Shown: positions 632 through 38,400 of the stretch, in pieces
Numbering within the stretch: position 1 is the first letter of the stretch
Layout: each line of letters opens with the position of its first letter
Origin: Nereocystis luetkeana
Lineage: Eukaryota; Sar; Phaeophyceae; Laminariales; Laminariaceae
Assembly (NCBI GenBank): GCA_031213475.1
Contig: JARUPZ010000012.1
Location: 8,588,227 to 8,652,226 of the forward strand
Direction of reading: 5' to 3'
DNA: 64,000 bases
The notes under the pieces: model-generated
What the model saw: the letters and a program-made list of their open reading frames with translations, nothing else
What the model was told of the DNA's origin: nothing
Database searches by the model: none
Translations under genes and position numbers: made by a program

Positions 632-3600
632 CGAATCGTAGCGGCGAGAAGTCGCAGCCTGCGTTCCAAGTCGGGCGTCAAGACGATTCCTTCCAGTTCC
701 TCATCCTCCTCCGACGCAAGAAGATTCCTGCCGGAGTCGAACCGAGAGCGCCGCCGAGAGAAGATACATCACCGATCGAACCCCATGATCGATTCCCACC
801 CACAGTTCATGATCTAGATATTCCAGGGGGCAGATAGATACCAGGTAGATAGGTTCCTGATCTGAATGACCTAGCTGATGTAGCCGGGTGGGAGCCGTGT
901 CTATAGAATATCTGCATACGGTCTGGGACGTGTTTGCTGGGTTGGATGATCTGTACGGTACGGGTCCTGCACGAAACATCTCCGTGACGGCTGGTCAGGA
1001 ACTAGATGGTCTAGATTATCCAGATTATCTAGATTATCTATCTGATATGGATGGTCTGCATGATATATGTGATTGAGATGATCTAGATGATCTAGGTGAT
1101 GCATCTGATTGAGATGATCTAGATGATCCATCTGCTCTGGATGATCTAGACGATCTAGATGATCTGGATGATATAGATAATCTCTATGATCTCTATGATC
1201 TAGATGATCTATCTGATCTATCTAATCTATTTGATCTAGATTATCTAGATGATCTAGATGGTCTATCTGATCTAGATGATCTATCTGATCTAGATGATCT
1301 AGATGAAGGATCTGGATGATCTAGACGGATGATCTAGATAATCTAGATAAAGGTGATCTAGATGATATGTCGGACGTGTGAAATGTTGCACAAATGGGAA
1401 AGTGTCCTGTTTTGGCCGTACACTCTACGAATGCCCGGTATTTCAACTTTGTTTTGTTTCTCGGTGGGTACTCGTATCCGCAACGTGTATGGTTACGCTC
1501 TTGTTCTTCTGTGGTCGAGATGGTAACCCCACAACAACATCGGCCGTTTTTTTCGAGCGGGCAAAGTACACCTCGTATGAAGGCAAGGGCCTCCATCGTA
1601 CATACCGCTACGCTACAAAAAGAGTGAGATAGTTGATATCACAACCAATCAGGCGTAAGTGCTCCCATGCGCAGTGGTTTCGCTTTGCGCACTACACATG
1701 ATACTAATACCGGTATTATTTTTATATATATCGAATCAATCGGCTGCCTCGAGCCAGGTGTTGCATCAAGCGCTACGCGTGAACTCTCTGCTTCAATGCG
1801 TGGCCCAGAAGAAAATAAACTTTTCGTTTCCGCACTACAGGCAAGCACAACCCTTTCCTGACGGCACGCTGCGTACCGTTAGAGGGTGCAAACTTGCTAT
1901 TTCCTCGGGGCGGGCCTTCATCATCTCACCAGAGATCTATTCTATCTATGCATCTATCTATCTATCTATCTGTTTATCCATCTATCTATATCACGCCAAA
2001 AAAACGGCCCGAAAAAATCACGTGTACGTTTTACAACCCTTTTAGGAAGTGCACTGTCACGGGGGACTATAGTAAATAGGACCATATATTGCTAGAAATA
2101 ATAGGGAAATATATACCTTGTAGGTTTTTGTCTGTACCATAGGTCCTATTTACTATGGCCCCCCGTAATAGTCTCGTTCAGGGGGACAAACCACTCTAAT
2201 TCTAAGTAGTTCGTCTCCCAAAACGGGAACTGCGGTCCCTAAAAGGGTTCACCCGACGATCAAAACAAATGGCCTAGGTTAAGCTTATACTTCGAAGTAT
2301 ATATAAACCGAAAATAAGATAGTCAAAATTAGTTGGATAGTTCCTTAGTGCCCTTAAGGGGTCCCGGCAGTCAGATTTTCTTTTGGCCAAAAAGGGCCAC
2401 TGGGACGTGCTACCCCATCTCCCTGCGTTCTGCAAAAATCTCTCCATCACCAGCACTTCAGCTGCTTTGTTCAAATTTTGGGAACGGAGGGGAGGGGGGG
2501 GTGCGTGCTCTATAGGAGAGATGTACTCGATCGCATCCATGGCCGTAGTCGTATGACCATTAGACCCTCGCATCCCTCCAATGCCGGGACGGAGCACGTC
2601 GGGTTTTCGCCGACAATGCAGACATTGCTTGCACCAAGCGCGAACCGCCGTGATACGTCTGGCGAGTCGCATGAAGGGTGAGCTGCATCCTACTAAACAC
2701 CGAAGCAGGGTAGGGAGTTGGATTAAGAAGTCGCCACCTTTGGCTTCTTCTCCCCTCATACGTAGAGTAATCGAGCTAGAAAACAAGGTGTGCTCTCTCT
2801 CTCTCTCGCTTACTACGCCGAGAAGAATCCTGCCGTCGATATCGATAGCGCGAACCGCCGTGATATGTCTGGCGAGTCGCATGAAGGGTGAGCTGCATCC
2901 TACTAAACACCGAAGCAGGGTAGGGAGTTGGATTAAGAAGTCGCCACCTTTGGCTTCTTCTCCCCTCATACGTAGAGTAATCGAGCTAGAAAACAAGGTG
3001 TGCTCTCTCTCTCTCGCTTACTACGCCGAGAAGAATCCTGCCGTCGATATCGATAGTTGTTGGATTGACATTGTCTCGCCCAGGCGTCGGGAACAACAAC
3101 CCTCCCCCCCCTCCCCGCCTCCCGCCCTCCCGCCCTCCCCTCCCCTCCACCCTGCAGCCCAGATCCTCATAGCATGTCTCTGCAATCAAGCTATGTAGAA
3201 ACCCACAATATCTCGCCCGTTTTTTCTCGCGGATAGATGAATCCTGCCACGATTCGATGCGAGTCAAGTTTACATCCTGTCGCCTCGCGTCGGGTTGACA
3301 ACAGACCCCCCCCCTCCCCTCCCTCACTCCCTCCTCGCCTCCCCGCTACATGAATCCTCCCGAATCGATACGCGTTGACTTTACGAACAGTGCCTTGTAG
3401 GGGTGGCGGCTTATTATTTCCTGAGCTCCTCACGTGGGGGCTTCCATATCTCACAACCGAAACATCAATCCGAAAAAGATTAATCGCGCGCGCTAGCCAG
3501 TCCCAAAACAGACCCCGTTCTACGATAGGGGTAGCACATTTCCGCTATTATTTTGTTTCTGAAAGACGGAGTTCCTTGACCTCAAATCGTCGGAATGTCA

Positions 3601-6600
3601 ATCTTGATTTCGAAAAAAAAAGTCTTGTAGACTTGGGCCATGGGATTCTTCGCCGCGATGCAGTTTGATTTTTTCTGAAGTCAGTTTTCGGGTAAGGTAT
3701 GGAACTCCTTAAGGTCAAGTGAGGAACCTCAGAAATTTAGGGTGAACCTCTATCGTAGAGCGCCTCAACAAGTATGCACCAGTACTACTGTACGAGTGAG
3801 TATCATATCCGGCAGTTGCTTGCCTCACTTGAGGAGCTCAACCGGACGATCAGAAACTATTGCCTCGGAAGGCAAAGAGTGCAACAGCCCCTACCGTGTG
3901 GGATGTATCTTATGTCCCTTCTCCTGGTCCAAGACAATCCCCATTCAGGGCATACGACTACGGCCATGCATGACATCGAGTACAACCCCCCCCCCCCTAT
4001 TCCTTCACCACCCCCCAGCAACCAGCCCAGGCCCAGGTCTTCAAAGCATCTCCATTGGCGTACCTGAAGCGGCCGCGACTCAGCCCAAATAGCGCCCGCC
4101 CGCGGCGCGCGACCCAGGCAATGGCTTCCCCGGGGAGTGACCCCGGCAAGTCGGTCTCCCTCACCAGCCGTGGCCTGGTTAGCCTCCGCCGAACGGCCCG
4201 GGCTATTCGAAAGAAGACAAGCCATCACGTGTAAAAAGAGGGCGCTCGATGTTAGTTTGTTTTTTTCAGATCGAAACGGGAAGTAACCGAGGCTGTCTTT
4301 GTTTAGCCTACGCCAAACAGCTCTCGCTGCTCGCAAGCAAAAACACATCTCGAGGCAAAATGGGGACGCGCGTTTTCTTTTTTTCCATCGCACACCTAAG
4401 GTAACTGTTTTTTTTTAGCACGCGAGACGTCGTGTCGACAATGGTTTCCCGGACAGTTACTCGCTTGTTTTGCACTCGGTTGGAGGTTGAGAGCGTCGGG
4501 GGGGAGTGGAACATGGGCAAGGCGTTAGTACGTTTCGGGCTGCCGAATTGGTTGTCGGTCTGGTTGCCGAATTGGTTGCCGAATTGGGCTTAGGTGCCGA
4601 ATTGGACGCCTAACTGGGCAAGAGTCCTAAGCCTGCATAGATGGTCCAGATTAACGCTGGAGCCTATACTATAGTTCAGTCGAGAGGGGTGAGCCACACG
4701 CAAGGGAATCGACGATCGAGATGACCCAGAAATGCACCCCACGGTGAGGGGAGCGGGGTGTGCTCAATACCACGCATGACCGTCTTCGTATGACCGTAGA
4801 CCTCCCCCTCGAATCCCTACAATGCCGGAACGAACCAAGCCGGTGTTTGCACCGGAGCAGCCAGACATAGATTGTTTGCACCAAGCGCAAAAGCGAAACG
4901 TGAGGTGCTGGGCGAGCCGCACGGAGGGTGGGCTGCATCCTACTAAGATCGCTTGTGAGACGGATTTTTTTGCACATCGATCACAGCGTCGAACTAATTG
5001 ATAAGTTTTCTGGTGTGACCACTTACATAAACAGCAATGGGTATAACATGTAACTGCCTCGTCGGTGTCTTACCGTATACACTACGTATTACGATTATTC
5101 TCCTTGTGCGGAGTTAATATTTTCCACCCCGCACTATTGCGGGGGACCATAGTTAATAGGACCACATATTGTTAGTAAAAGTTGTTAAATATATAGGTTT
5201 TTATGTATACCATAGGTCCTATTTAGTATGCCCCCCCGTAATAATGATCTCAGGGAAAGGGGGGGGGGAGGCAGGGGCAGGGGCAAGGCGGCACGTGGTC
5301 TTGTTGAACACCTCGATCAAATGCCGTCGTTTGCACGAAGTCGGCCTGCCGAAACAATGAGACCGCAACACGGACGGAAGCATGGTGGGGTGCGGACTTT
5401 TCATCGCCTTCGAAAACAAAACGCGTGGTTTCCCACACGAAGTAGTTTTGTTAGTTAGTGCTATTGAGAGCCCTTCGTTTATTTACGACGAAAAATAGTG
5501 TCAACTGATGAGGGCCCCTTGTTCGCTGGGACGAATATATATATATATGAAGTCCCCCGATGTAATGTCAAGACGTTTTCCGCCGTGTTTCCGTGCTGGC
5601 TAGCGTACCTGCGAGCGTAGAGGAGTTCCCCACCAAGAGGCTGACAAAGGCTAGCCCCAAGAGTCCCGCCATTATTCTCGCCAGCTTGACGGGATCGGAG
5701 GAGACCGACAGAACGACCGCGCCCACCAAAGCGAATGTTTCGTCCACCACCTACGATGGGCGAGTGCGCACCGTACACAACGAGGAGGAGGAGGAGGAGG
5801 AAGAGGAGAGTGGGGTAAAGAGACGATGGTTGATTGTGCAAGCGGGACAGATATATCATGATATATCAATCTATAGATCACCTACTGCAGTAGACCCTAA
5901 CCCGCCGTTCTGAGATGTTGCACAGGGCCTGTATGCAGTACCAGGTACCAGGTAGTACGTGTCCAACCCAGGAAACATGTCTTCGATCGTGCGGATGGGT
6001 ATGGCTACCATCCGGAAACGTGAGCTAGGTGCTGTAGATCATCCCCGGTACAGATCAGGGATCTGTCCGCTCTGACAGCTTCAGCTCATTCGGTGGGAGA
6101 ATCTATGGATATGTTCGAGATGCGGACATCTGTACAGTATTACGGGGGACCATAGCAAATAGGACCAAATATTGTTGATAAAAATAGGGAAATATACAGG
6201 TTTTTGTGTTGTGCACCGTAGGTCCTGTTTACTATGGTCCCCGGTAACAGTAGTAAGCCACATGCTACGCGGTAGAGCAAATGGGTGAATACACTACCCT
6301 ACTGAGCTAGTGTCCTGCTGTCGACGCCAAACTTGAAGGTATTGCGAGGCGTTCTACGATAGAGGTATCACACTCGGAAAACAAAAAAAAAATCTGAGCC
6401 ACCACGTCGTCTTTCCTTGCCGGGTGCCAGTTGAAGGATGAGTATGTGAGCACTTGTGCCCCTACCTTGTTGGGCATAATCTGTACGTACGCGTGCGAGA
6501 TGCGTGTAGCATCAGTCGCATTCAGATGTTCGTTTGTCCCCGTTGAATTCCCGCAGTATACCTTGGGAGGACATGGGAGCCTCAGAAATTTCAGGTTGAA

Positions 6601-9600
6601 TCTCTATCGTAGAACGCCTCTTACCTACTGAGAGCTACAGAGGTAAGATAGATGCCGATCGATTACCCAGCCCAGGGTAACCCTTGTGACAAATGCACCT
6701 GTTTTTTCTCTATGCATCACCCTAAATATGATTTTGCAGAAAAAAATGAAAGTGTGCGCAACCCGATGAACTATCGAATTATTCACACGTCGGACAGATC
6801 TTCTACCGATTAACTACAGATCATCTACGCATCGTTTCCACTTGACGATCTAGATCTTTCAACGCAGATAGATCTATCACTGACCCTGTAGGATCTAGCA
6901 CATACATGCTGACGGACGGGACCCGTAGAAAAATCTGCATGTCTGTGTAGCACATGTTGCCTGGGCTGGATTATCGGTACTATATACAGATCCTGCGCAA
7001 CCTCTCACAACGGCATGTGAAGAACTACAGTAGATGATCTAAATCATGATCTGTCTGATCGGCCTGATATGTCCGCGGTGTGATTATTTTGGAAAAATAA
7101 AAATGCTGTACGTATTCCAACGACAAGGCATGTCTTATTGAGTAGTTCCTCAGTGACCCTAAGGAGGTGCCTAAAACGGTGCGGTGCGAGTGGAGAATTT
7201 CGACGCACAGAACAAAACTCACCGCCTGGGTCTGCTTCCTAGCCTCTTCTCCTTTCGCCCGTATCCTAGCCACGTCCGCCGCTTCCCCGCCCCGCTCCGC
7301 CTCGGTCAAGGCGCGAACGGTGGCGAGTCTTTCAGACAGTCTGGGGCGTGTTTAACGCCCGCGAAGAAAAAACAGGCACGAGTGTTCGGGCATCGACATG
7401 CGCCTCGTGTCAGTCAAAGGTGTCACCCGCAGGCGGCAGATTTGTGCGTCGTCAGCCACATCTTCAGGAGTTCCTGCACTAAAACTGGTATAATGCGTCT
7501 AGACGGCCGTCCGTCAGTCACATGTGTAATAGATTCCGCACTAAAAATAGTATAGTACGTCTAGACGGCCGTCCGTCAGTCACGTACTAAGTAAGTAAGA
7601 TACCCCACACTAAAAAAAGAGTATTGCGTCTAGACGGCCGTCCGTCAGTCACATCAATAGGAGCTCCGACACTAAAACTGGTATACTACGTCTATACGGC
7701 CGTCCGTCTAAAAAGCCGTCCGCTAGTCACATCAATAGGTGATCGTACACTAAAACTAGTATATTTCGTCTAGACGGCCGTCCGTCACAGGCCTAAACTG
7801 CCATCTCTCCCCAACACCTTTGGTGTCCGAGAGGTGTCAGAAATGCTGCTAAACTTTTACCGCAGCGGTCCTGCGGAAAGAGCAGTAGTGCCGCCGCATG
7901 TTTTCCTCGAGAAGCAAGAAACAGACGCCCCGGAGGATACTTTTACGGGGGACCATAGTTAACAGGACCTATGGTACACATAAAAACCTATATGTTTAAC
8001 CATTTTTACTAACTATATTTGGTCCTGTTAACTTTGGCCCCCCGTAATAGAGGTTCGGGACGAATTAGGTCTTCCGCCCTAGACAGGAACCACTCGTGGA
8101 AGACGGGGCGGTCGGTCGGAAGGTACGGAGGAGCAACGCAGCGAGGAATACCACGGTAGCAGTGGTTTCCAAACACTACACTGACGAGTGCTCTCTGTAA
8201 ACGCGATTGGGTGGCGTTGAGGTCTCGGGCAGGGACCGTGGAGGACAACGAATTTGTCTGCGGGTGTATCGAAGTTCCAAGTCCTCGCGGCGTGTGAAAC
8301 TAAGCTTGTTTTGGGATTGGTGCATGGTGTAGAGTTACAGTACTGCTGTAGGAACGACCTAAGCCACGACAAGCTTGTCCCCCACTTGCTTGCTATCGCG
8401 CTAAAGGATGCAGAGCGTGGGCCATCTTTCCCGGAGAAGCCACTATCACACATACGATCCATCGTTCGAACCTTGTACGATATGAACGAAGCTCAACTTT
8501 ATTCGTAGAGCACCGAACTCCTGCATTCCACCTTTGGGAACCATAGGGACCACCCAAAGGGAAGAACCGCTGGGTTTGGACCGTAATTGAGCCGTGAATC
8601 GCGGTACATATATATATATATATATATATTACATCACTTTTACTTTCCAGCCTACCATGGTAGGCCGTAGGAGGTTTTTACCCTCGGCGATCTTCTGGAC
8701 AAGCCGTGGTCACAGGTGTCGTCCCTTCTCCCCCCCGGTACGTGCCTTCATTTTTTGTCGCGCATAGGGTTCAGCATTCCCACTGCTCGTCGATTTTAAT
8801 CGAATTTAGCTAACTCACGCTCTCGCGCTTTCCGCCAATCAATTTCTTCATGCAAGAAAAAGTCCCAGCGAGCATGTGCACTCGGTGAGACTCGAACCCA
8901 CGAAATTGATCTTGATAGGCACGCGGACCACCTACCGAGCCACCGGGGACGTATACGCAACCGACGCTCTTAATCTATTCCTGGTAGTATTTAGTTGCAA
9001 GTGATACACGATGGTATACCACGGCTCGTTATTAATAGTACCCTCACCCTTCCGTTGCCGTACTGGTACATACTGCGCCTACCACTTTGTTCCTGTTTTT
9101 TTAATTCCCTGAAGACGCTTTTTTGTTAAGCCTGCGTTTTGGTGACCCAACGGGCGCAGTAGATTTGAGGGAAATGAGCTAGTGGGAAAACGTCAACAAC
9201 ATCATCATCGTTATCACCATCATCATCATTATCATCCATCATCATCATCATCGTCATCACCACCATCATCACCACAACCACCACCATCATCACCATCTTC
9301 CATCACCATCATCGTCATCATCATCATTATCATCCATCCATCATCACCACCATCATCACCACCACCACCACCATCATCATCATCTTCCATCACCATCATC
9401 GTCATCATCATCTTCCATCACCATCATCGTCATCATCATCATCATCTATCATCATCGTCATCATATTTTTGTGACAGGTGCTCGTACTCTCGCATTGCGT
9501 CGTACCTGCGGTTGGCCGACAATTGCGAGGTCTGATTGGCCGCCTGTACGTCGAGGCCCAATAGCGCGACTTCCGTCGATCTCCGGCGGGACTCCTTCTC

Positions 9601-10965
9601 GGCGGTCGATGTTAAAACAATTATTGGGGATAATAATTATTGGGGAACCGAGGAGGGGGGGCGTTTCAGAAAAGAGGGTGACAAAAATCCTGTTTCGAAA
9701 CGGTGGCCACCAATGCAGTACGAGATGATGGCGCAAAAAAAAGGCTATCACTCTCGTGTCCGGAAATACAGTACTCGTTTGGTTTTAATATCAGAGTACA
9801 AGCGGAGATAACATTTTCACCCGAAGGAGTACCTCGGAGATGAGTGACCTACGACACCGCAACGCTGCAGGCAGGTCGCTGCGGGCAAAACACAATGTTC
9901 AACGCACGAAAAGAACGGAAGCAGCTGGCCACGTGTACAGCAGCAGCTTGGCGAGGTATGTATATACACGAGTCGTGCACGGGGCCACGGCAGTTCAACC
10001 ATGCTGACCACGCCACTGTTTATCATTTCTGGCGACTAATCGCCTACGGCATCAGCAGTCGGGCGCACTCTGTGGATGTCGAGTTGAATCGCCACATTTT
10101 CGGGCGAGCCTTATGGGCTTGGGGCTGGGATGCAATAGCTGAGAGTCCGTACTCTCTAATCGGAAAGTGTCAGTGTTCAGCCAACCACCATATTTTTGTG
10201 AAGAAGACAATACCACATGACAAAACTCTTATTTGCTAACGCAGGACTATGCGAAGGTCCCTCTGAGTACGATGATCCATATCAACCCCGGGACCACTCG
10301 AGGCCCTTTTTGCGCTTCCTCGTCACGCTAGCGTCGCTTTCCAAATAAAAGTTCCCTTCATATTGGTCCCCAAATATATATATGTTAAAAAAAAAAAATG
10401 GTGTGCGTCGAAGCGCAGCGCATGTGCTGCAACCTGCAAGTAACGTTTTTGGTCCCCTTTTCTCCCCTCCCAACTACCCCAAAGCTATGCGATAAACAAA
10501 AACGATTGCTTCAAACTCCGGTGTATATGAGCACGTGCAGTAGTCAACCGACCGTGTTTATACTTCCCATATATATACATGTGGTACTCTGTCCCACAAC
10601 ATAAAAAAACTTTTCAACTCAAATATCCAATCCAAATGGTCCTTATGTTGCGGAACGATATGTATTTTTTTGCCGGAAACAACGCAGATAACAAAACAAG
10701 ACTTCGCCCCGCGGCCGCTTGCACCTCTAAATCTCCGAGGGCTTCCACGCCCTTTTGCTGCTCGTCGAGGGTTTCCAGGGCTAGGGCCGTTCTTTCCTCC
10801 ACCAAGGCCTCCGCTGCACCAAGTTCCATATCAGCCGCTGACAGGGTCTGTGTGTGGGCGTGCATGCCGGGGAAACGGGAGGGGGCGTTGTGCGCTTGGT
10901 CGATATTGCATCGCTCGCGGACGCGAGCTTCGGTCTGTAGGGGGAGGGCTGCACGTTGTTGTTGC

Positions 10966-11011
<46 letters not shown>

Positions 11012-14000
11012 GCTGTTGTTGTTGTTGTTGTTGTTGTTGTTGCTGTTGTTGTTGTTGCTGTTGTTTTTGTTTTCTTTTCTGAGGCTCCTCCTCGCGTAAA
11101 GCTAGGTCGTCTCTTCAGGAGCTCAATATTCCACCCACCCTTTTAGGCCAAACTGCAGTAGTCCCGTCCTGGGGGCAAACTACTTAGAATTTGAGTGATT
11201 TTTCCCCCGAACGGGACTGCAGTACTAACAGGGTTGAACAACCGATCAACCATAGCGGTGGCGGCCTACACGACCGGTCTGACCCTAAACAGAAGGGACG
11301 GTTAGATGGTAAAACGATTGGCGAAAAGTACCCTAGTTTTTTATGGTCAAACTGATCAATACTATCTCGAAACACTCTCGTGAACAAAAAAGCCATATTC
11401 CAACGATAAGGCGTGATGCCGGGTGATCAGCTCCTCAGTGCTGTCAGGGCCCTGAAGAAGCCTCGTCGGTCAGAAATGTTTTTTGGACCAAAAATATGCT
11501 ACCCTTATTGTATGTAGCACGCACGCCTCCCCGGCACACGTGAACGCCGTGCAATGTGAACAAACAGCCTGCACTCTTAATTTTCTGCAGCGGCCCCGCT
11601 TCTTGTGTGGCGCTAGCTGATAACGAACCCAGACTCTTGGTTTGGTCGTTTGCTCGGGGAGAGACAAAAAAAACAGCCGATTTTTCCTATTAATTTGAGA
11701 ATTATCTGCCTTTCCGATCAGAATAACAATCGATTTTAGACTATTCTTTTGTGTTCCAAGAATTGTACATCCCTCATCGCCAAAAGTTAACCTAGAAAAC
11801 ATGTTAATTGATAATACGTATCGGCCCACGAGAAAAAAAACAGCCCTGACAGGCTCGTGAAACAGAGGAGACAAAAAACTTGGCGATTTTTTTCTCGGGT
11901 CTTTCGATATCTCGAGACTGCCTACGTGCTGGTTTGTTTGTTTTTTAGGTATCATCGACGGCTGTCGCAAGTGGTATTTTTTTTTTCACAGTGCGAATTT
12001 TGACTGCGAGGGCAATGCACCACTTGAAAACGTGCGTACCCCTACGCATGGTAGCACGCGCCCCGAGTTGGACGGCGGCGACGGGTGCCCTTGCGCCTTC
12101 TGGTTAGCACCGCCGCCGAACAGAAAGGTGCTTGTGTGGAGGGAGATGGGATACAGGGGTTGCCCACCAAAGTTGGTAGGCTAGCACCGGTGTTTCTTGG
12201 GACTCTCCCCGGCGTCCATTTTATGGTAGACCATTGGCACTGTAAGGTGATTTTGTACCCCCCCCCCTTTTTCCGATGCCGGCATGTTGACCTCTTCTGA
12301 GCAACGCGCTGCCCATACCACCCCCTATTTTATTGTTTCTTTGACTAAAATGCTGGTGTACTTGAGACACTTACGTGAAAAAGGAGAGATTCTCCATTAA
12401 ACGAAAAATACGACTTGGTTCACGCCCAGAAGTCGTTTATTCATTCATTGCACCCACCCATACCCACCATACCATCAAGCGACTACATCAGGTCTAAAAA
12501 ACAAAATGCAACTGACACGCTCGATCAGATCGCGATAGCGAGAAGCCGATTCGCTTGCACCACGCCTTCCGTGGCTTGCACATAAGCGTCGTACGTACGG
12601 CCTGCCGCACGACCTGTCACGAGCCCAACGTAATCAGCTCGACGGGCCGCACCTGGTTGTGTCTGAGCTCCACCCATCTCCGACGTTCTCGTCCCATCGC
12701 CTCCTGCGAAGCGATTTTGTTCTAGGCATTGGGCACGCGCAACCACCAACAAGCAACGGGCCGGCGGCGGTGAGAGAACTGGTTTCCCACAGACAGTTGT
12801 TTTTTTTTTCGCGTTTTTTGCCGTGCGGTCACGTTTTTTTTTGTATTTTTTACGCGATACCGAAGACACGGAGCTGTCCTCGCCTCGCACTTGCGTAATA
12901 AGTGTCTAGCAGTAGTCAAATTTGAGCCCAAAGGGATAACCATATTTCCTGGAACTAAGTACATATGATATCAGATACCTGGTATAATATATGCTTATAC
13001 TATGCATGTGAGTGCGTGTTGCACAAAGCGTACTCGGGGCCTACAGGAATTTGCTTTTCATTTCAAAGAGACGGTTTGTTTTACGTAGATGGATGACTAC
13101 GTTCTGAGACGTATAGAGGTGGCAGGGAGGGATGGGGAGGGGCGGACAATACCCGTTTTTTCCCGCCAAAAAGTCTAGACACTTGCTGTTAGGTTTGCGG
13201 ACTTGGGGTTCAGGGTTTGGGTAGTGATTTTGGTGCAGACGGCGCCGCAGCCCGAACCGCCACTGTTTTTTCCCCGAGATTTTTGGAATTTGACGAGGGG
13301 TTGAGGTTTTCCAAGCTAGAAAGCGACGTTCGGCAATGGGGTACTCCGATTGTTGAGCGGAGGTGCTGGAAGGCCGTAATACCGCACCGATCAAGGGCCG
13401 TGCAAACACATAGCTGGTACACCGTACGAGTGTTTTCCCCCAGAGCGGGTGAGTACGAAAACGCTTGTTGGTGCTCACAAGCCAAAAGTCGGCACACGGA
13501 AGCTAACAAGGCCATTATTTTTTTATTTTTTTCCCAAGTCCCGTTTTCCCTGCAGGGAACACCGCGGGAGCTCCATCTACTACTGGTTGTGGTGCCCAAG
13601 AGGGGGATAACCGTCGGCATCCCCACCTCTGCGTCCGCTCCCACCGCGACCGCTAACAGCTAGCTGGTTCTCCTGAGCAGGACGGTTGACGAAAGCGCCC
13701 AGTCAACGAGAATCTTTAAGATCGGGCTCACTCGTGTCCTGCCGACGGAGGCCATGCTATGTAGCCGGGTAAACTCTTGCCCAACCGAAGCACCAAATCG
13801 GTGCAGTTCTAAAAAATGGTATCATAGCACTACTTTGGCAGCTCCCGAGCACAGAATAGTTGGTGCATATTAGCAAGCATGATATATCGCTGCGACTGTG
13901 CCTACGCTGTTTGTATCTACGTAGCGTACTTCCCACTGCATGATTTCTAGTGTCGTCTGCCGCCCTCTATCGAGGGGGGGTCACAGAGTGCCCGTCGACG

Positions 14001-17000
14001 TTTTGTACCTTGACGATGTCACGCTCGAGCTCCTTCACTGACGCGAGCTCCCGCAATTGTGCCGCTGTCTGCCACTCCTCCCCCTGCTCCTCCATCAGTC
14101 TGACCACCTCAAGGCTGGCTGTCGATCCGTGCAGTTCGATCGCCCCGAGCGTGAGCGCGTAGTAAGTAGCGGTGGCCGTTGGATCGGGATCAAGCGAGCG
14201 AGGCTCAACGCCGCGCATACGATATACGTTCGCTTCGCACACTATCGTATTACACGCGGCAAGACGGCACACCCCTTCTCGGAAAAAAAATATACCCGGA
14301 GCTGGTATTCTTGATAACGGAGGGGGAGGGTGGAAACGCCGACCGGTGGGTCGATATTGGAGAGGGCTCGAAGGTATATTTCCGAGGGATTTTTTGTTGT
14401 TGTGTGTGTGTTCGCCCCCCCCCTCCTTGGTTTCGGACAAAAATGGACTCGGAAAATCATTCCGGTGCAACGGGTTGCCGGGTACGTCTACTGTTGATAC
14501 GACTCATCGTGTCGCTTGCATCGTCGGCTCCAGAGGGCACCGGCTACTCGGTCATGGCAGCGCTGTCATCAAACAAGGTGATCGCCACCGAGCCTCGTCA
14601 ACTTCTCGAGGGTTGACTGCCGACAGGGGCGGCGATTTTTGGCCGAAACAGCTGTCGGTGTTCCGTAACCGAGAGCCCCTCTTCCCCATATCGTTCAACA
14701 CCATGTGTGTTTTATTTTTGGATGATATTCGTTGTATACCTATCGTACCATGTTCCGTGCGCAAGAGCTGGGAATGAGGGTCGGTTAAGGATTCCTTCTG
14801 TCCGCATCACAGGGGAGCCGGCCGCGTCTGGTCTCACTATGGGGCGTCCGTCAAAGCCCACACGACGTCAGAGGGAAAACATGTTTTCCGTTGTTGCTCG
14901 GAAAGTGCTACGAACGTACAGTTCGTTATCAACACACAAAAGAAAGGGTACTGCAATTCATTACAAGGTCCGCCGAACAGGCAACACATTGGTCTCTCCC
15001 CAGCCAACCTCCAAAAAGGAGTAGCATAAGATTCGCCTCTCGAAGAACAGAACTAACATGTTTTTCATTGTGATCGACGTAATCACTCGTGGATCTCTCT
15101 ACGGACGTATCCATAGCGCTGACAAACAATTTTACAAAATAAACCCTAAGCTCCGGTAGTGTCGCCTTTCCAACTGCAAGTGGTTGTCGAATACCAACCA
15201 TGAGTAGGAAATACAGCCGATGAAACCAGCTGGCTCTCCCTCCCTCCCTCCCTCCCTCCCTCCCTCCCTCCCTCCCTCCAGCTGTCTAGTTGCGATGCCC
15301 TCACCGTTTTGTGTTTCCGCCTTAAGAGCACTCATCTTCGTTTCTAGCGCGTCAAATCTCCTCTGCAGTTCCTGGTTTACGCATGGGTTGGTGTAGTGGG
15401 GAGCGTTGCGTGTTCCTTGCCATCATCGGTATACGAAGGTGCCGTTAGGTACCAGGCACTGCACGCACCAAACTCCCTCTCCCCGAGTACGTACATAGAA
15501 GGGCTTATTTGGCTCTCCTCTAGTGTTAATCCTAATATTAATAATAGTAATACATAGTAGTACATGGTAATACATCGTAGTAATACACGGTAACACACAG
15601 TAATGCACAGTAATACACAGTAGTACACGGCAATACACAGCAATACACAGCAATACAAAGTAATACATAGTAAAACATACCTGGTAGTAATCAGAACCTA
15701 CTTTGGAACCAAAAACCATGTATTCCCCCATGGTTACGCAGCATACTTGGTTCTGATTACTGCATACACCCACCCGTAACACTGTGACGATAAGGGGTTG
15801 CCACGGATAGACGGCACCACATCTCTACGATTCGTTGATTGCGGAACCGCAATTGCCTGAGTTTTACTCCGCCTACGCGCGTAGAACTCCCTTCTTGCCG
15901 CCACGCGTACGTGCGTTTCACGGGGGATATACTACTTGGAATTAGAGTTGGGCGACGTTTCACAGGTCGGACAGATAGATCCTCTAGATCATCTAGATTA
16001 TGCACAGATAGATAATCTCGACCATCTAGACCATGCACGGATAGATCGTCTATTAATAGACCATCTAGATCATGCACAGATAGATCATCTACTGTAGACC
16101 ATCTAGATCATGCACAGATAGATCATCTACCGTAGACCATCTAGATCATGCACATATATATCATCTGCTGTAGACCATCTAGATCATGCACAGATAGATC
16201 ATCTAGGCTATCTAGATCATGCACGGATATATTATCTAGATCATGCGCAGATAGGTAATCTAGATAATCTAGACCCTAACCTGCCGTTATAGGATGATTG
16301 TGCAGGATGTGTGGAGTACAGACCCATCCCGGCAGATTTGTGCTGGATCATGCACATTGCAAAGCTCCCACCCTTAAATAGCATGAGCTAGATCTTACAG
16401 GTCACAGGAATCCATCAGCCCTCACAAGACCTAGGTAGGGAATCGATGGCCTGTCTGAGGCTGTTTGTAACGTTTGCACAGCAGCGGTAAGTACAGGGGC
16501 TAACAACCCTTTTTTCTGCGTTTTTTCTCTGAGTGATCGACGTTTTCAAGCCCGCTCTGCATGCTGTTGGGTGGCAAAACATTCCATGACACTATCCGCA
16601 CATTCCCACCTCATGATCTAGATCTTCCAGGGAGGAGATAGATCCTTGATCTGTACGATCTAGCTCATGCTTTTCTAGCGTGGGAGCCGTTTACGAAGAA
16701 TAACCTGAGATGATCTCCTAGGACACGTTTCCCGGGTTGGATCTGTGCTATACAGACCCTGCACAAAATCTCATATCGACAGCCTGGAATCTTGGTTATC
16801 TCTGTTGTGTGTAAATCGTGAAATATGTAACGTTCGTCGCGGTACAGGGAGGCCAACGATTTTTTCTAGATATAGTTGAGGGTGACCTGCAGCTGAGTTT
16901 GTGCTGCACATTGTAGGGTAGGAAACATGACATGCCAGCAGCAACGATGACAAATACCAGCTGAGAAAATTATCGTAATCAGTTTTTGAGACAGTTCCCG

Positions 17001-18943
17001 GCGTGGGCGTCATACACATCAATCGTGCCTGAGTGACCGTCACAGTGTGCGCGAAAAGGTAGGTCCAATCCACGTTCGGCACGCCTTCCACGCTGGACCG
17101 TGACCCGTTCGGCAGAACGACGGGCAGAGTGAACGTCGAAAATGCCTCCGGCAACAGGTGGGCCATTTCGGTCGGCCGCACGCCGAGCTGTCGCCTTCCC
17201 TTCCTCCGGTCATACTTGAAGGTGTAGTAGCTCAGCTGGGCCTGTCGGTGGGAACGGTGCATTTATCATGGGGATTCTCGTTATCTTTTTAGAGTTGTCT
17301 GGGCTTCTTTTATTCGTTTCAAAAATGAATAAACAACAGAGCTAAAAAGTCGGCGCTGACTAGGTAGCTCAGTGGTGCATCCTTTCTAAACGAGCATATG
17401 CTGAGATAAGCTTTATCCGTTGGCACGCGCACGCAACGATAAAAAGGAAAGAAATATATACCTGCCTGGTACCTGTCGTGTGCGGAAAAGTAAGGATCGT
17501 TTCGGCAATCGTGTTAACATCTAAGCGTGCCTTACATTCACGGACAGAGGCACCTGGTAAAAACAGCAGTAGTGCCTTGGGAGGGCAGGTAGCCTGAGCT
17601 CGGAAGCATGGTGGATAATCGTGCTTCACTTGTTCTAAAAGTGTTACAAAATACGCCAGCTGTGAGTACGACCGTTCGTGCCTATGTTTCGTCCCTGGTG
17701 TGCTCTTCGTATTTTTCGGTGTTTTCTCACGCGCCACGCACTACATTAATTCATACCAGTACAGTGCGTAGGCTAGTCACGTCAGAATGATCTACGATGG
17801 AAAGGGTTACCAGGGGCTTGCGGTTCGTCGGCGGACGAGCGAAGCAGTAGCAGTGCTTGCCTACTGTAGGTATAGAATACACGGCGCGCTGCTACTGCGC
17901 GTCGCAAGTATTGCTCATCTCCGCTACGCACGAGCACGTCTTCATAGCCGTGTCAGGTACGTCGTACGCTACTATCTTTCCAACTGCAACTATAACCTTG
18001 AACTACTTGGAATTCTACAAGGATGTTTTTTTACGGTACTCTTATCTATACAAGTGCAATACGAGACACCTATAATCATATAAAAAAACGAGCAATAAGA
18101 AAGGCAGGCCGAGAATTACAGGTCAATAAGAACTTCGGGAGTCGTTATACTGAATTGACTGTAGTGTGGAAAACACCCTACCAGGTATCTCAAACGGGAA
18201 ATCCGGTCTGCACCAGCTTTCCTGTCTCCTATGTCCTGTACTGCTGTACACACCTTTCGAAGCACCTCCCAGCTTGTGACAGCGTCGACTCCAGCCACAA
18301 TCTCATACAAAGCCCACGGGTCCTGATTCAGCTCAGACAATGCCTCGTGGTCCATCCCAGTCATAAGTGCAGCAGGCAAGCCGTGCCGTTCAGGCACAGG
18401 CGAGCTCGTACTAACAATCTCGCTGTCATGATCGGCCGGGCATTCAGCAGCCCCCCCCTTCTTCTTTTGCGAAGTACTGCTGGTCGTATTATGGCTGCTG
18501 ATTTTTCGCGTTTTCGCCGCATGACGATGAGCATTGTTATTTTGTGCGTCTGATCTGGATATTCTAGTCTCGAGCCCATCATCTATTTCTGGTTCATTGC
18601 CCTCCCCCTTCTCTTCCTCCACAGGCGTAGGCCGTGTGCTGGCTCCAGCCGAGCATTCGCCAGAATTGCCATGTGTTGTCTCTCGAGAAGTGCTGTTGCT
18701 GTAGCTGTCATGACTGCTCCTCGGTCCTGGTGATAACGTTTTTTCCTCCACCACCGCACAGCCTGGCACATCGCTTTTTTCTCCCGTTGATGTTGTTGTT
18801 GTTGTTGTGGCCGATGGCGTTGCTTCGTTTGCCGACGGGCTGGCGTTGAGCTCTGCTGCTCGGCACGCCTGCGCACCATGCGAGGAAACGAGCAGAGCGA
18901 GCGTGGCGACTCTTCTGGATAGCCTATGGCGTCTTCGAGCCAT
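632..18943 (-). CDS. S74 (intramolecular chaperone) - coiled coil - ATAD3-like membrane AAA+ protein, 3' partial
   Basis: Eleven exons, read on the minus strand: 18943-18254, 17593-17462, 17241-17029, 15371-15305, 14118-14009, 10847-10725, 9597-9506, 7340-7223, 5750-5609, 4202-4064, 727-632 (640 codons plus 2 nt). Phases agree at every junction. Residues 1-26 are an Arg-rich leader (MARRRHRLSRRVATLALLVS). Residues 27-215 are Ser/Thr/Glu-rich. Residues 231-350 match the peptidase S74 auto-processing domain: SVRECK (246-251) fits the S-x-R-x-x-K dyad, followed by YYTFKYD, RRQLGV, LLPEA and VDWTYLFAH. Residues 346-515 are coiled coil. Residues 516-609 match the ATAD3 membrane region: SSDPVKL, a membrane helix at 538-556, then RPRLVRETD (human ATAD3: KPSLVRETS). 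The last exon has ELEGIVLTPDLERRL, as ATAD3 has just before its AAA+ core. Walker motifs would lie off the left edge. Exon 1 could instead extend to about 18206 and exon 2 start at 17631, also in frame. ATAD3 is a mitochondrial inner-membrane protein; S74 fusion is not usual for it. Two adjacent genes mis-joined is the main alternative. Confidence 0.78.
780..1372. repeat. GATCTAGAT repeat family (R5), long copy
   Basis: A unique-looking head (TGGGAGCCGT, TGGGTTGGATGATCTGTACG, CCTGCACGAAACATCTC) runs into about 370 bp of degenerate GATCTAGATGATCTA repeats. Similar heads followed by shorter arrays occur at 6790-7060, 16610-16800, 21170-21315 and 61075-61335. Confidence 0.75.
2034..2251. mobile_element. 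MITE-2 copy carrying a MITE-1
   Basis: Ends AACCCTTTTAG and CTAAAAGGGTT, with GTCTCCCAAAACGGGAACTG in the right arm. Without the nested MITE-1 it is about 105 bp of long inverted repeat. Confidence 0.7.
2058..2167. mobile_element. MITE-1 copy, inserted in a MITE-2 copy
   Basis: Family of about 105-110 bp with terminal inverted repeats close to TTACGGGGGACCATAGTTAA and an AT-rich centre. This copy has a changed left end (TCACGGGGG) and sits inside a second inverted-repeat element (2034-2251). Confidence 0.8.
2483..2700 (-). repeat. Dispersed repeat R3 copy, reverse orientation
   Basis: A G-rich start (the reverse of the C tail), then AGGAGAGATGTACTCGATCG, GTCGTATGACCATTAGACCC and GGTGAGCTGCATCCTACTAA. 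Confidence 0.7.
2638..3055 (+). repeat. Two-unit tandem duplication, about 210 bp per unit
   Basis: Units 2638-2847 and 2848-3055 are nearly identical (GCGCGAACCGCCGTGATA to TCGATATCGATA). They differ by a C/T near the start and by one CT dinucleotide in the internal CTCTCT run. The start of each unit is R3-derived. Confidence 0.9.
3517..3767. mobile_element. 250-bp TIR element (family 3)
   Basis: Ends GTTCTACGATAGGGGTAGCA and ACCTCTATCGTAGAGCGCCTC are inverted repeats. The interior contains TTCCTTGACCTCAAATCGTC and TGGGCCATGGGATTCTTC, shared with the copy at 42892. Confidence 0.75.
4669..4950 (-). repeat. Dispersed repeat R3 copy, reverse, diverged
   Basis: GACCGTCTTCGTATGACCGT, TCCCTACAATGCCGGAACG and GTGGGCTGCATCCTACTAAG match R3 in reverse. 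Confidence 0.55.
5137..5241. mobile_element. MITE-1 copy
   Basis: Terminal inverted repeats (GCGGGGGACCATAGTTAA left, CCCCCCCGTAA right) flanked by TA, in an intron of the minus-strand gene. Same family as the copy at 37303. Confidence 0.85.
5930..6070. repeat. R5 head, reverse, with TACCAGGTA insertions
   Basis: TCCAACCCAGGAAACATGTC matches the R5 head in reverse. TACCAGGTACCAGGTA sits where other copies have a plain TATA/TACA stretch. Confidence 0.55.
6140..6245. mobile_element. MITE-1 copy
   Basis: TTACGGGGGACCATAGCAAA left end, diverged right end GGTCCCCGGTAA. Confidence 0.8.
6346..6620. mobile_element. 250-bp TIR element (family 3), diverged interior
   Basis: Ends GAGGCGTTCTACGATAGAGG and CTCTATCGTAGAACGCCTC pair as a clean terminal inverted repeat. 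The interior differs from the other two copies, so it may be a related subfamily. Confidence 0.65.
6780..7065. repeat. R5 copy
   Basis: GCACATGTTGCCTGGGCTGG, TACAGATCCTGCGCAACCTC, ACAACGGCATGTGAAGAACT, then ATGATCTAAATCATGATCTG. Confidence 0.6.
7490..7795 (+). repeat. Spaced direct repeats with GACGGCCGTC core
   Basis: Five repeats of TCTAGACGGCCGTCCGTCAG, each preceded by CACTAAAAMTRGTATA, start near 7498, 7560, 7629, 7691 and 7769. Spacing 60-80 bp with variable spacers. The core is palindromic. It lies in an intron of the minus-strand gene. Confidence 0.85.
7944..8047. mobile_element. MITE-1 copy
   Basis: TTACGGGGGACCATAGTTAA left end and GGCCCCCCGTAA right end, inverted orientation of the centre relative to the copy at 37303. 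Confidence 0.85.
8254..8508 (+). CDS. Unassigned 84-codon open frame
   Basis: An open frame encodes VSKFQVLAACETKLVLGLVH ... DAERGPSFPEKPLSHIRSIV and closes with TAG. The composition is protein-like, but it lies in an intron of the minus-strand gene, between a MITE copy and a SINE-like repeat, and contains a TACTGCTGTA motif of the kind found in repeats. It may be a transposon fragment. No family recognised. Confidence 0.2.
   Translation: MSAGVSKFQVLAACETKLVLGLVHGVELQYCCRNDLSHDKLVPHLLAIALKDAERGPSFPEKPLSHIRSIVRTLYDMNEAQLYS
8692..8955 (-). mobile_element. tRNA-derived SINE-like element, copy A
   Basis: On the minus strand it begins with a tRNA-like head: GGTGGCTCGGTAGGTGG resembles an A box and GGGTTCGAGTCTCACC a B box, followed by a tail shared with the copy at 48078 (GTGCCTTCATTTTTTGTCGC on plus). 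No closing acceptor stem, so not a tRNA gene. Confidence 0.65.
9195..9470 (+). repeat. (CAT/CAC)n microsatellite
   Basis: About 275 bp of CATCAT/CACCAC triplets with higher-order units (CTTCCATCACCATCATCGTC repeats). It ends 36 bp from the minus-strand exon 9597-9506. Confidence 0.9.
10955..11065 (+). repeat. (GTT)n microsatellite
   Basis: About 110 bp of GTT with a few GCT interruptions, in the intron about 107 bp upstream of the exon starting at 10847. Confidence 0.92.
11136..11235. mobile_element. MITE-2 copy
   Basis: ACCCTTTTAG ... CTAACAGGGTT, with arms GTCCCGTCCTGGGGGCAAAC and CCCCCGAACGGGACTGCAGT folding on each other around an ATTTGAGTG centre. Confidence 0.75.
12525..12721 (-). CDS. 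Possible extra or alternative exon inside an intron of the S74-ATAD3-like gene
   Basis: An open minus-strand stretch reads GGDGTRTSEMGGAQTQPGAA ... DYVGLVTGRAAGRTYDAYVQ ... LLAIAI, closing with TGA at 12525-12527. Composition is protein-like. It lies in the intron between exons 14118-14009 and 10847-10725, which already join in phase, so it would be an alternative terminal exon or a nested gene. No family recognised. Confidence 0.25.
13119..13960. other. Intron stretch without recognised features
   Basis: Lies in the minus-strand gene's intron 14008-10848. Open frames on both strands at 13210-13660 overlap each other, and none shows family motifs or matched splice sites. No repeat family recognised. 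Confidence 0.4.
15236..15279 (+). repeat. (CCCT)n microsatellite
   Basis: Eleven CCCT units 26 bp past the donor site of the exon ending at 15305. Confidence 0.92.
15540..15675 (+). repeat. AGTAATACAC minisatellite
   Basis: About 13 degenerate units of 8-10 bp (AGTAATACAC, AGTAGTACAC, AGCAATACAC). Confidence 0.8.
15965..16275. repeat. R5 GATCTAGAT array
   Basis: Tandem units around ATCTAGATCATGCACAGATA repeated about nine times with variation, about 33-45 bp apart. It lies in the intron between exons 17029 and 15371 of the minus-strand gene. Confidence 0.7.
16610..16800. repeat. R5 head
   Basis: GATCTAGATCTTCCAGGGAG, GGGTTGGATCTGTGCTATAC, ACCCTGCACAAAATCTCA. Confidence 0.6.
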
Positions 18944-35400: not shown

Positions 35401-38400
35401 AGGAGGAGGCCTATCGCAACATGTACGACGACGCGATGGACGGTGTCGCGGACATTTTGGTGCAGAAGGTGACAGGGCGTGCTTGACTTGAGGAGCTTCA
35501 TGCCTCAATAACTGCAGTAGCACCAAAATCCGGCTTTTTGATAAAATGTGTATTTACTCTTCCCCCCGACAAACGATTACATGTCCTATACTGCCTATTT
35601 TTGATACTCGGGGGGGGAAAGCCGTGGTTTGATACTCGGGGGATATACACTAACGCCAAGTAGTCACATCCGTTCCTCGACAGCTTTTTGACAACTTTTC
35701 ACACTCTTTTTCCAAGTGGTACCTGGTACAAGTCCGAATATAACTTGAATAATAAGGGGGTTAGACTTTGAACCTGCAGACATGACTTCAAACCCTGCCA
35801 AGAGCACCATTGTTTGTTGTTGTTTGTTGTTGTTCTCACATTAACTCTCTGACGAAGGAGTCCGTGGTCACACAAAGGTGCTGGAGCCCTAGGAAGATCC
35901 GAAAAACAAAAAAAAACGAAAATTCGGCTGCCTCAAAATACACGAGACGGAAAAAGCGCACACAAGATAAAACCAATGTGCAAAACTGAACTAACCTGGC
36001 CGCGGGTATATCCTCTCAACTATAATATAGAAGAGTACCCCCGTTCCCACCACTAACCAACTCGTGGCTGCTGACTACAGCGGATGCTGTCTGAAGTGCT
36101 GCCTGCACCGTACGAAACGCACGGTAGTCGTGAAAACGAAAGAGGAACACACCTGCCTGCTATCTGGAGTGCTGTCACAGAGTGAAGACTCGCGGATATG
36201 CAGTGGAAAAAGGAGCAATCGAACCTTACTGCCACACGAATATCAACGATCGCCATCTCTTCCTGGACTGTCTGACACAAAAAGGTGCAGCACAGCAGTT
36301 ATGATACCACGTCCCTGATAATTGCGTAGGTTATTCCCCATGAAGGGTATACAACTCGTTAAACTACAAAAACCAGTGACGAGTACCGGTAGATACTATT
36401 CTGCCTCGTGAAAAACAAAACCAGGAAAAAACAAACTATGACTGCTTCTCTCGTGATGATAGTGTGCGCGCAAATCATGGGTCTCCATGCACCGTCTTCC
36501 TGCCGCTCTTCATGGCCGCATCATCGCCTCGGCCCAATCCACCCGCTCCTTTGCGCGTGCACTCGTTGCCATTCCCTTCCAGTCGTTTCCCTTTCTCCGT
36601 CATCCTGAAAAACAAAATGCTCCTCGCACTTGCGGTTCTGATCTGAAAAATAAAAATTCTCGCGCAGGGGGAGGTCAATCCGTCTCTTCCCCGCACGTCG
36701 ACGCTCAGTCTCCCTCCTCCCTCGTCGTCGAATCCAGCCTCCAACCGGCGCAATAGACTGTGCCGTAGTGTGGCCTGTGGTGGCGCCTGCCTCCGCGCAT
36801 GGACACCCCGATTGAGCATTGCTGCTCTGCCGCAGCTGCCTAAAAAGACGCGCGAATCGTAGGTCTCCGTGCCTGACGCACCACGTACGACCCAACTCTA
36901 CTGCCGCCTGAGCCTCGCGGCCACAGGCAGCAGCAAGAAGGTATCACTCCTTGAGGGTGAGTCCGGCCTTACACCCGCCAGAAAGACCTACCCCACTCGC
37001 TATTAGCCTGATAGGGCATGCCTCGCAGCATTCCTTGCCGAGGCAGCGAGGGGAACGGAACTTGTATATATACCTGGTACATATTTTTTACTCGTTTGTG
37101 TATACTCAACACAAGCAGTACCCAGCCTTGAAGTTCGGTGGGTGCTAACGAAACATTTTTGTGCAACACAAAATGGGACACATTACTACCGGGAATTACC
37201 GGGTAATTCCCTCATGTGCGCGCAGAAGTAAAATTGTAACACCAATCAGATGAACTCAAATTTGGCGCAAAACGAGGCGTCAGGATTAGGTGAGATCACC
37301 TATTTACGGGGGACCATAGTTAATAGGACCAAATATTGTTAGTAAAAATGGTTAAATATATAGGTTTTTATGTACACCATAGGTCCTATTAACTATGGTC
37401 CCCCGTAATAACAAAACGAACGCCCGAGTCGATCACTCTATTGAAGGCTAGCTCCCCTGCCAGAACAGGGTAACAGGCACCTGGAAAAACACAGAATTTC
37501 CCGCCCACCCTACAAGCTTAGTAGTCTTTTTCTGCAAGATCATTTCAATCCCGGGGATTGGCGCCGCGCTGAGAACGCACGAAGCGCGGAGTTTATCCCG
37601 GGCGTGGCCCCCCTGCTTCGGGGCAGGAGGCCTCATCCGATCCAATACAGTACTTACATTGAACGATCAGCGGCAGCGTAATAGAAAACTGTAGGAATTA
37701 CCGGGTAGTTTCCTCAGTTTAGGAGCTCTGCCGGACTGAAAAATATTACGGTCAAAATGTGTTATGTACATACATTCCCCCCTGCTGTCGTTGCATAGCC
37801 CCTGCTGTCGTTGCATAGCCCCTGCTGTCGTTGCATAGCCCCTGCTGTCGTTGCATAGCCCCTGCTGTCGTTGCATAGCCCCTGCTGTCGTTGCATAGCG
37901 CATCAGGTGTGGGGGCTGACGTCTGACCCGCCCCACGTATTCGATACGGGGGCCAGGTCGGGACAACATGCTCACACGCCCCATGGTACAGCAGCAGCAG
38001 CAGCAGCAGCAGCAGCCGGTTAAGCGGTTGAAACGGGAACGGCCGGGTCAGCTTGACACACGGCGCTATCCTTACACGTGGCAGCGTGGCGAGCTCAAGC
38101 TGTAGCTTTGAGCTACTGTAAGCTCAAGCCGTAAACGTGACCAATCCGCCGGATTATAGAATGCCGAAAACAAGGAATAAAATCGACTTTGTCTGCCCCG
38201 CTTACGCTTGGTAAAACGCTTGGCATCTTTCGCTACCGTGCACCTGTCCGAAGAACTGAACCTGACATCTAATTCTCACTGTTTTGCCTTCACAGTGGGA
38301 GAGTAGTGGCGTCCTGAAGGAGTAGATTACTTGGGCATGGAGTTCGATTTTTACCGCAAGTTTTTTCAGGGGGGGGGGAGGGGGGGGGAAAAGGGTCGAG

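Follow-up and report, generated by a model that had tools for sequence, protein, structure and literature searches.

A 64,000-nucleotide stretch of the Nereocystis luetkeana genome (contig JARUPZ010000012.1, positions 8,588,227 to 8,652,226; hereafter, the window) carries on its minus strand a gene that combines an S74/ICA-like domain with a membrane AAA+ protein resembling ATAD3. It is a single gene, and the fusion is conserved. With a probability of roughly 0.6, the product is a membrane AAA+ ATPase of the ATAD3 type that bears a cleavage-dead pseudo-ICA domain before its coiled coil, as a permanent assembly clamp. The sequences themselves show the chain of exons, the homology to S74/ICA, the ATAD3_N region, an AAA+ core in the orthologues, the absence of the catalytic dyad and a matching architecture in Pelagophyceae. 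Elsewhere, ICA domains occur in phage fibres and in MYRF-type transcription factors, in both cases as self-cutting assembly aids. No description of an S74/ICA-ATAD3 fusion was found among the papers listed by full-text searches of open-licence PubMed Central.

A fusion shared with relatives

With residues 200-600 of the first model of the gene (longer in exon 1, shorter in exon 5 and without exon 7) as the query, a protein search returned six matches, five of them named or labelled as brown algae: Pylaiella (P0001, 929 amino acids), Hapterophycus (P0002, 392 amino acids, partial), Ectocarpus fasciculatus and Ectocarpus sp. 4 (629 and 578 amino acids; P0003, P0005), and Undaria (P0004, 919 amino acids, named via its JGI label Undpi1). 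The sixth was P0006, which begins downstream of the S74 part; in the Undaria model, the S74 exon is skipped. The Pylaiella protein matches 99% of the queried region and contains an S74-like part, a coiled coil, membrane helices and an AAA+ core. The order of parts seen in the window recurs in the gene models of P0001, P0002, P0003 and P0005, which come from separate genomes, although the brown-algal annotations may stem from one shared pipeline. Against P0001, P0002 and P0003, exon 2, which encodes the core of the S74/ICA-like domain, is better preserved than any other exon (61/71, 57/71 and 59/71 residues, respectively), so that the domain seems to be under constraint.

A second search, with the coiled coil and AAA region of the Undaria protein as the query, gave 20 proteins, and profile scores combined with inspection placed an ICA-like part in 11 of these: the Pylaiella protein, two proteins of the pelagophyte Chrysophaeum taylorii (P0010 and P0023), P0011-P0014 and P0017-P0020, with a weak match in P0011, P0018 and P0019. 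Seven others (P0004, P0006, P0008, P0009, P0016, P0021 and P0024) begin at or after the ICA part or skip its exon. No ICA-like part was found in two full-length proteins with ATAD3_N and AAA, P0022 from the red alga Rhodosorus marinus and P0015 from the record jgi/Chlat1, neither of which is among the ICA profile matches listed. Single chains of 759-1026 residues join the ICA part to ATAD3_N in P0010-P0014, P0017, P0020 and P0023. The architecture is therefore present in Phaeophyceae, in Pelagophyceae and in environmental sequences, and is not confined to brown algae. The tree of the AAA region is too weak to decide between an origin before the Phaeophyceae/Pelagophyceae split and another route of spread.

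Two of these proteins have further peculiarities. The Walker A motif of P0023 holds a 14-residue insert, possibly an unspliced intron. P0015 is a protein of 1463 residues with a hydrophobic, signal-peptide-like start, and its precomputed Pfam domains are presumably of the NHL and Ig-like types, judging by their accession numbers; it is perhaps another secretory-type ATAD3, outside the ochrophytes.

Identity of the two halves

Pfam alone reports Peptidase_S74 neither in the window protein nor in the brown-algal proteins. However, with a profile built on the S74 domains of ten phage proteins, the spliced window protein obtains 26.5 bits (residues 231-319) and the isolated window segment 31.8 bits, against a shuffle maximum of 14.5 (3,705 of 4,000 shuffles scored, including ones that keep the coiled coil in place). 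For comparison, the genuine ICA domain of phage K1F reaches just 14.2 bits with the same profile. In the reverse test, with a profile of 13 ICA-like fragments of the family, four of the 11 phage domains outscore every shuffle.

The alignment of these 13 fragments, when searched against PDB sequences, finds, as the solved structure closest in sequence, the ICA domain of MYRF (7DC3, E=1.7e-11), and also the phage tail fibre 8HQZ (E=5.4e-8). With E values of up to 10 admitted, nine of the fragments match PF13884 (best E 9.7e-6; the first member of these matches has 26.2 bits against a cut-off of 22) and six match MYRF_ICA (best E 0.004), while hhalign gives S74/ICA homology a probability of 96.9. 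MYRF_ICA (PF13887) stays under its 24.1-bit cut-off in P0010 and P0012. One protein, P0013, which represents 57 member sequences, exceeds the Pfam cut-offs for Peptidase_S74, ATAD3_N and AAA together, with 22.5 bits for PF13884 against 22.0. Membership of the S74/ICA family, as judged by homology, is thus strongly supported once relatives are included.

As in the phage Peptidase_S74 or endosialidase C-terminal chaperone (PF13884), the algal domain is followed by a coiled coil. In the brown algae, the coil starts directly after the ICA domain with R-[FY]-x-x-L-[EDN], which we take to lie near the R-h-x-x-h-E trimer motif of the coiled-coil literature, and a weak Trimer_CC match (E 0.034) occurs in the window fragment. 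Unlike the K1F domain, which ends its tailspike and is cut off according to the record annotation, the algal domain lies near the N-terminus and has a membrane ATPase downstream.

The second half resembles ATAD3 (PF12037 and PF00004) in its coiled coil, in the hydrophobic helix pair upstream of the [KR]P.LVRET signature and, in the orthologues, in an AAA+ core with Walker A, Walker B and DR.DE; it differs in the added ICA domain and, often, in a secretory-type leader. An AAA+ core with both Walker motifs follows the membrane helix in P0001, P0004 and P0006, the motifs in Pylaiella being GAPGSGKS and VVVMDEAE. PF12037 lies far above its cut-off of 25 bits in P0010 (99.7), P0012 (78.3), P0013 (101), P0017 (67.1) and P0023 (85.7), at the cut-off in P0004 (25.0) and below it in P0002 (20.9), P0003 (13.0) and P0006 (18.2), and was not reported by the Pfam scan for P0001 and P0005.

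The original prediction of this fusion is supported, and the same order, which it suggested looking for in other brown algae, was found there. Recognition of both halves by Pfam, another check that it suggested, holds at the level of the family; in the window model S74 goes unreported and PF12037 reaches 19.5 bits, below the cut-off.

Leader and location

Where does such a protein reside? ATAD3 is known as a mitochondrial AAA+ protein with its ATPase on the matrix side, and an ATAD3 working in mitochondria as in animals, with the leader as presequence and the ICA part in the cytosol or the intermembrane space, is one alternative to be weighed. Human and Plasmodium ATAD3 are mitochondrial (PMC13249166), and the leader in the window is rich in Arg and has a less hydrophobic core, as this view would have it. 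Its relatives speak against it. A strongly hydrophobic leader is present in eight of 13 ICA-bearing proteins (P0003, P0005, P0011, P0012, P0014, P0017, P0018 and P0023); the leaders of P0012, P0014, P0017 and P0023 are short, hydrophobic and almost free of Arg, and those of Ectocarpus have a long hydrophobic core. These calls come from hydrophobic stretches near the N-terminus. No hydrophobic leader was seen in P0001, P0010, P0013 and P0020; of these, P0001 is flagged as a partial record and P0010 has its first residue within the domain. Given the eight leaders, a mitochondrial location should not be assumed, and we regard it as unlikely.

Loss of the catalytic dyad

The original prediction also held that, as in MYRF, self-cleavage would release the N-terminal 245 residues. 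In MYRF, the dyad consists of S587 and K592, five residues apart, and alanine at either position blocks cleavage (PMC8326128, PMC3742443); in PMC3742443 these residues are numbered S578/K583.

When the 13-fragment profile is aligned to 7DC3, E593 falls on profile position 9, with the numbering anchored by R611-L612 and Y615/Y617 (PMC8326128), and an ungapped extension beyond the start of the match then puts K592 at position 8. All 12 fragments that cover this position have Tyr there, and none has Ser at the S587 position: five residues before position 8, the ten computed fragments have D (four fragments), T (two), A, R, P and E (one each), while P0011 and P0018, read by eye, have A and W. P0010 is truncated short of the site and does not count among the 12. 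Alignment with phage domains by MAFFT shifts the dyad to neighbouring columns, where the brown-algal rows again have neither Ser nor Lys.

One could still imagine an active protease with an altered active site, whose self-cleavage frees the N-terminal piece. Overall ICA homology is clear, and an S-x4-K motif is found as S[YH]Y[TI]FK, 11 residues before GRR, in the window protein, P0001, P0002, P0003 and P0005, and as SKIPLK, 16 residues before GRR, in P0020. Both motifs lie far downstream of the place of the dyad, however. In the brown algae the S-x4-K precedes the final Gly of GRRxxG by 16 residues and falls in the strand that aligns with MYRF Y615/Y617, whereas the phage Ser stands 37 residues ahead of the matching Gly in the two domains measured. 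No S-x4-K was found before GRR in P0010-P0014, P0017 and P0023, and the only ones in P0018 and P0019 are 177-218 residues upstream of it. Since loss of either residue abolishes cleavage of MYRF and the 12 readable fragments have neither in its place, an active protease is very improbable.

With the Ser-Lys dyad missing from every one of the 12 fragments, the known mechanism would not be expected to produce self-cleavage here, and the proposed release of the N-terminal piece is not supported. The cutting residues being gone, the domain is probably an assembly aid rather than a self-cutter; the likeliest reading of these sequences is a pseudo-ICA domain that would fold and trimerise without cutting.

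MYRF can be compared in other respects. In both, a coiled coil and then a membrane helix come after the ICA domain, and the position of Y615 is Tyr in 10 of the 13 fragments and Phe in the other three. The algal family differs in lacking the dyad and in having an AAA+ ATPase after the membrane helix, and its leader suggests a reversed topology. Scans of P0001-P0006 with E values of up to 10, and of the window model with six relatives (E up to 1), gave no match to an NDT80/PhoG-like DNA-binding domain, and Pfam reported no MYRF C-terminal domain in the proteins scanned. The part before the ICA domain (192 residues in P0001 and 233 in P0003) had no Pfam match in the same proteins.

Gene model

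Exons were rebuilt from splice sites and then corrected against relatives. The resulting model has 11 minus-strand exons from 18943 to 632, amounting to 1856 nucleotides and 618 codons free of stops; it describes a partial protein, and all ten joins are consistent in phase. The eleven-exon chain first proposed is thereby confirmed in its outer coordinates and in the junctions 17029/15371 and 15305/14118, while its length of 640 residues is not retained. Introns measure 1.0 to 3.3 kb, and GC at third positions is 0.72 in exons 2-11 against an overall GC of 0.49 in the introns. From the N-terminus, the model consists of a leader, a disordered region, the S74/ICA-like domain (beginning near residue 208), a coiled coil, membrane helices, the signature RPRLVRETD and the lead-in to an AAA+ domain. 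Searched with tblastn, the minus strand of the window gives matches to Ectocarpus P0003 for exons 1-10, in order, and to P0001, P0006 and P0009 for exon 11.

Exon 1 (18254..18943, residues 1-230) provides the start ATG, the leader MARRRHRLSRRVATLALLVSSHGAQA, the disordered region and the start of the ICA-like domain, DPWALYEIVAGVDAVTSWEVLRK. It likely ends at 18254 (AAG|GTGTGT) rather than at 18182, as 18254 is the exact tblastn stop of four of the five matching queries (P0001, P0003, P0004 and P0005); the fifth, P0002, extends to 18122 at 35% identity. The shift removes 24 residues, which would explain the earlier count of 640. Exon 2 (17029..17241, residues 231-301) encodes the S74/ICA-like core, AQLSYYTFKYDRRKGRRQLGVRPTEMAHLLPEAF...VPNVDWTYLFAHTVTVTQ, recognised by the phage S74 profile, and is followed by a GC donor (CAG|GCACGA). 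After ...VTQ at this junction the public models P0001, P0003 and P0005 diverge (ARFSA, AWIRR and AWLRRQ), as expected if predictors missed a conserved GC-AG intron. Exon 3 (15305..15371, residues 302-323) holds the end of the ICA-like domain and the start of the coiled coil, ELQRRFDALETKMSALKAETQN.

The coiled coil continues through exons 4 (14009..14118, residues 324-360), 5 (12653..12721, residues 361-383), 6 (10725..10847, residues 384-424), 7 (9506..9594, residues 425-453; 26/29 identical in Undaria) and 8 (7223..7340, residues 454-493; 38/40 identical in Undaria), the last in the ATAD3_N region. Here, some splice sites are weak: the acceptor of exon 4 and the donor of exon 6 fall below the thresholds of the splice-site listing, and the exon 7 acceptor CGAGAAG|GAG was judged weak by eye. 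Exon 9 (5609..5750, residues 494-540; 42/47 identical in Undaria) encodes the hydrophobic helix pair, with the best stretch LARIMAGLLGLAFVSLLVG at a hydropathy of 2.07, and exon 10 (4064..4202, residues 541-586) the ATAD3 signature TRPRLVRETD.

Exon 11 (632..727, residues 587-618 and a split codon) encodes the AAA+ lead-in ELEGIVLTPDLERRLRLLAATIR, with tblastn matches of P0001 and P0006 at 702-631 and of P0009 at 720-631. A 210-bp unit in two copies of 98% identity, at 2637-3056, lies within the last of the gene's introns that the window shows. Searches of the window by tblastn with the relatives found no AAA core; the left end of the window cuts the gene, which should hence continue left of base 1, where an exon with a start resembling SAYGRGAPLPHILIHGATGSGKS of P0004 is expected.

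Could gene prediction, in this model and in public databases alike, have merged two neighbouring genes, one for an S74 protein and one for an ATAD3 protein? P0006 and P0008 have annotated starts after the S74 part, an open reading frame with an ATG lies directly upstream of exon 4 and the brown-algal models may share one pipeline, but this is hardly credible with ten joins in phase, four brown-algal models (P0001, P0002, P0003 and P0005) spanning the join, and the ICA part and ATAD3_N in one chain in Chrysophaeum and in environmental proteins, including P0013.

Elsewhere in the window, an exon of a GH47 alpha-mannosidase gene lies on the plus strand at 41137-41664 (PF01532, 96.8 bits), and a perfect tandem array occupies 37779-37899 (20-bp unit, 6.1 copies, 100% matches).

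Proposed mechanism and outlook

How might an ATAD3 with a cleavage-dead pseudo-ICA domain work? We infer its trimerisation, topology, location and function as follows. The leader would direct the N-terminal half into the secretory system, so that the pseudo-ICA domain would come to lie in the lumen. There, a trimer of this domain, as in MYRF and tail fibres, could nucleate and cap the coiled-coil stalk and remain attached to it. The stalk would cross one membrane, and the AAA+ ring would act on the opposite side; a hexameric ring would then bear two trimeric caps. The ICA domain would then be a permanent assembly clamp and not a protease switch. A broader proposal, which falls somewhat short of even odds, is that ochrophytes possess an old ATAD3 of the secretory pathway with a role outside mitochondria; its lumenal stalk would be based on a protease-dead pseudo-ICA domain, related to those of phage tail fibres and MYRF, as a permanent trimeric clamp.

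A conserved ICA domain that lacks its dyad and belongs to a membrane ATPase would set assembly apart from proteolysis, the two roles of this domain, and provide a natural test of either role. In a major lineage of algae, ATAD3 would also be seen beyond the mitochondrial setting that is usual for it, and the protein offers a handle on how the N-terminal half of ATAD3 is assembled.
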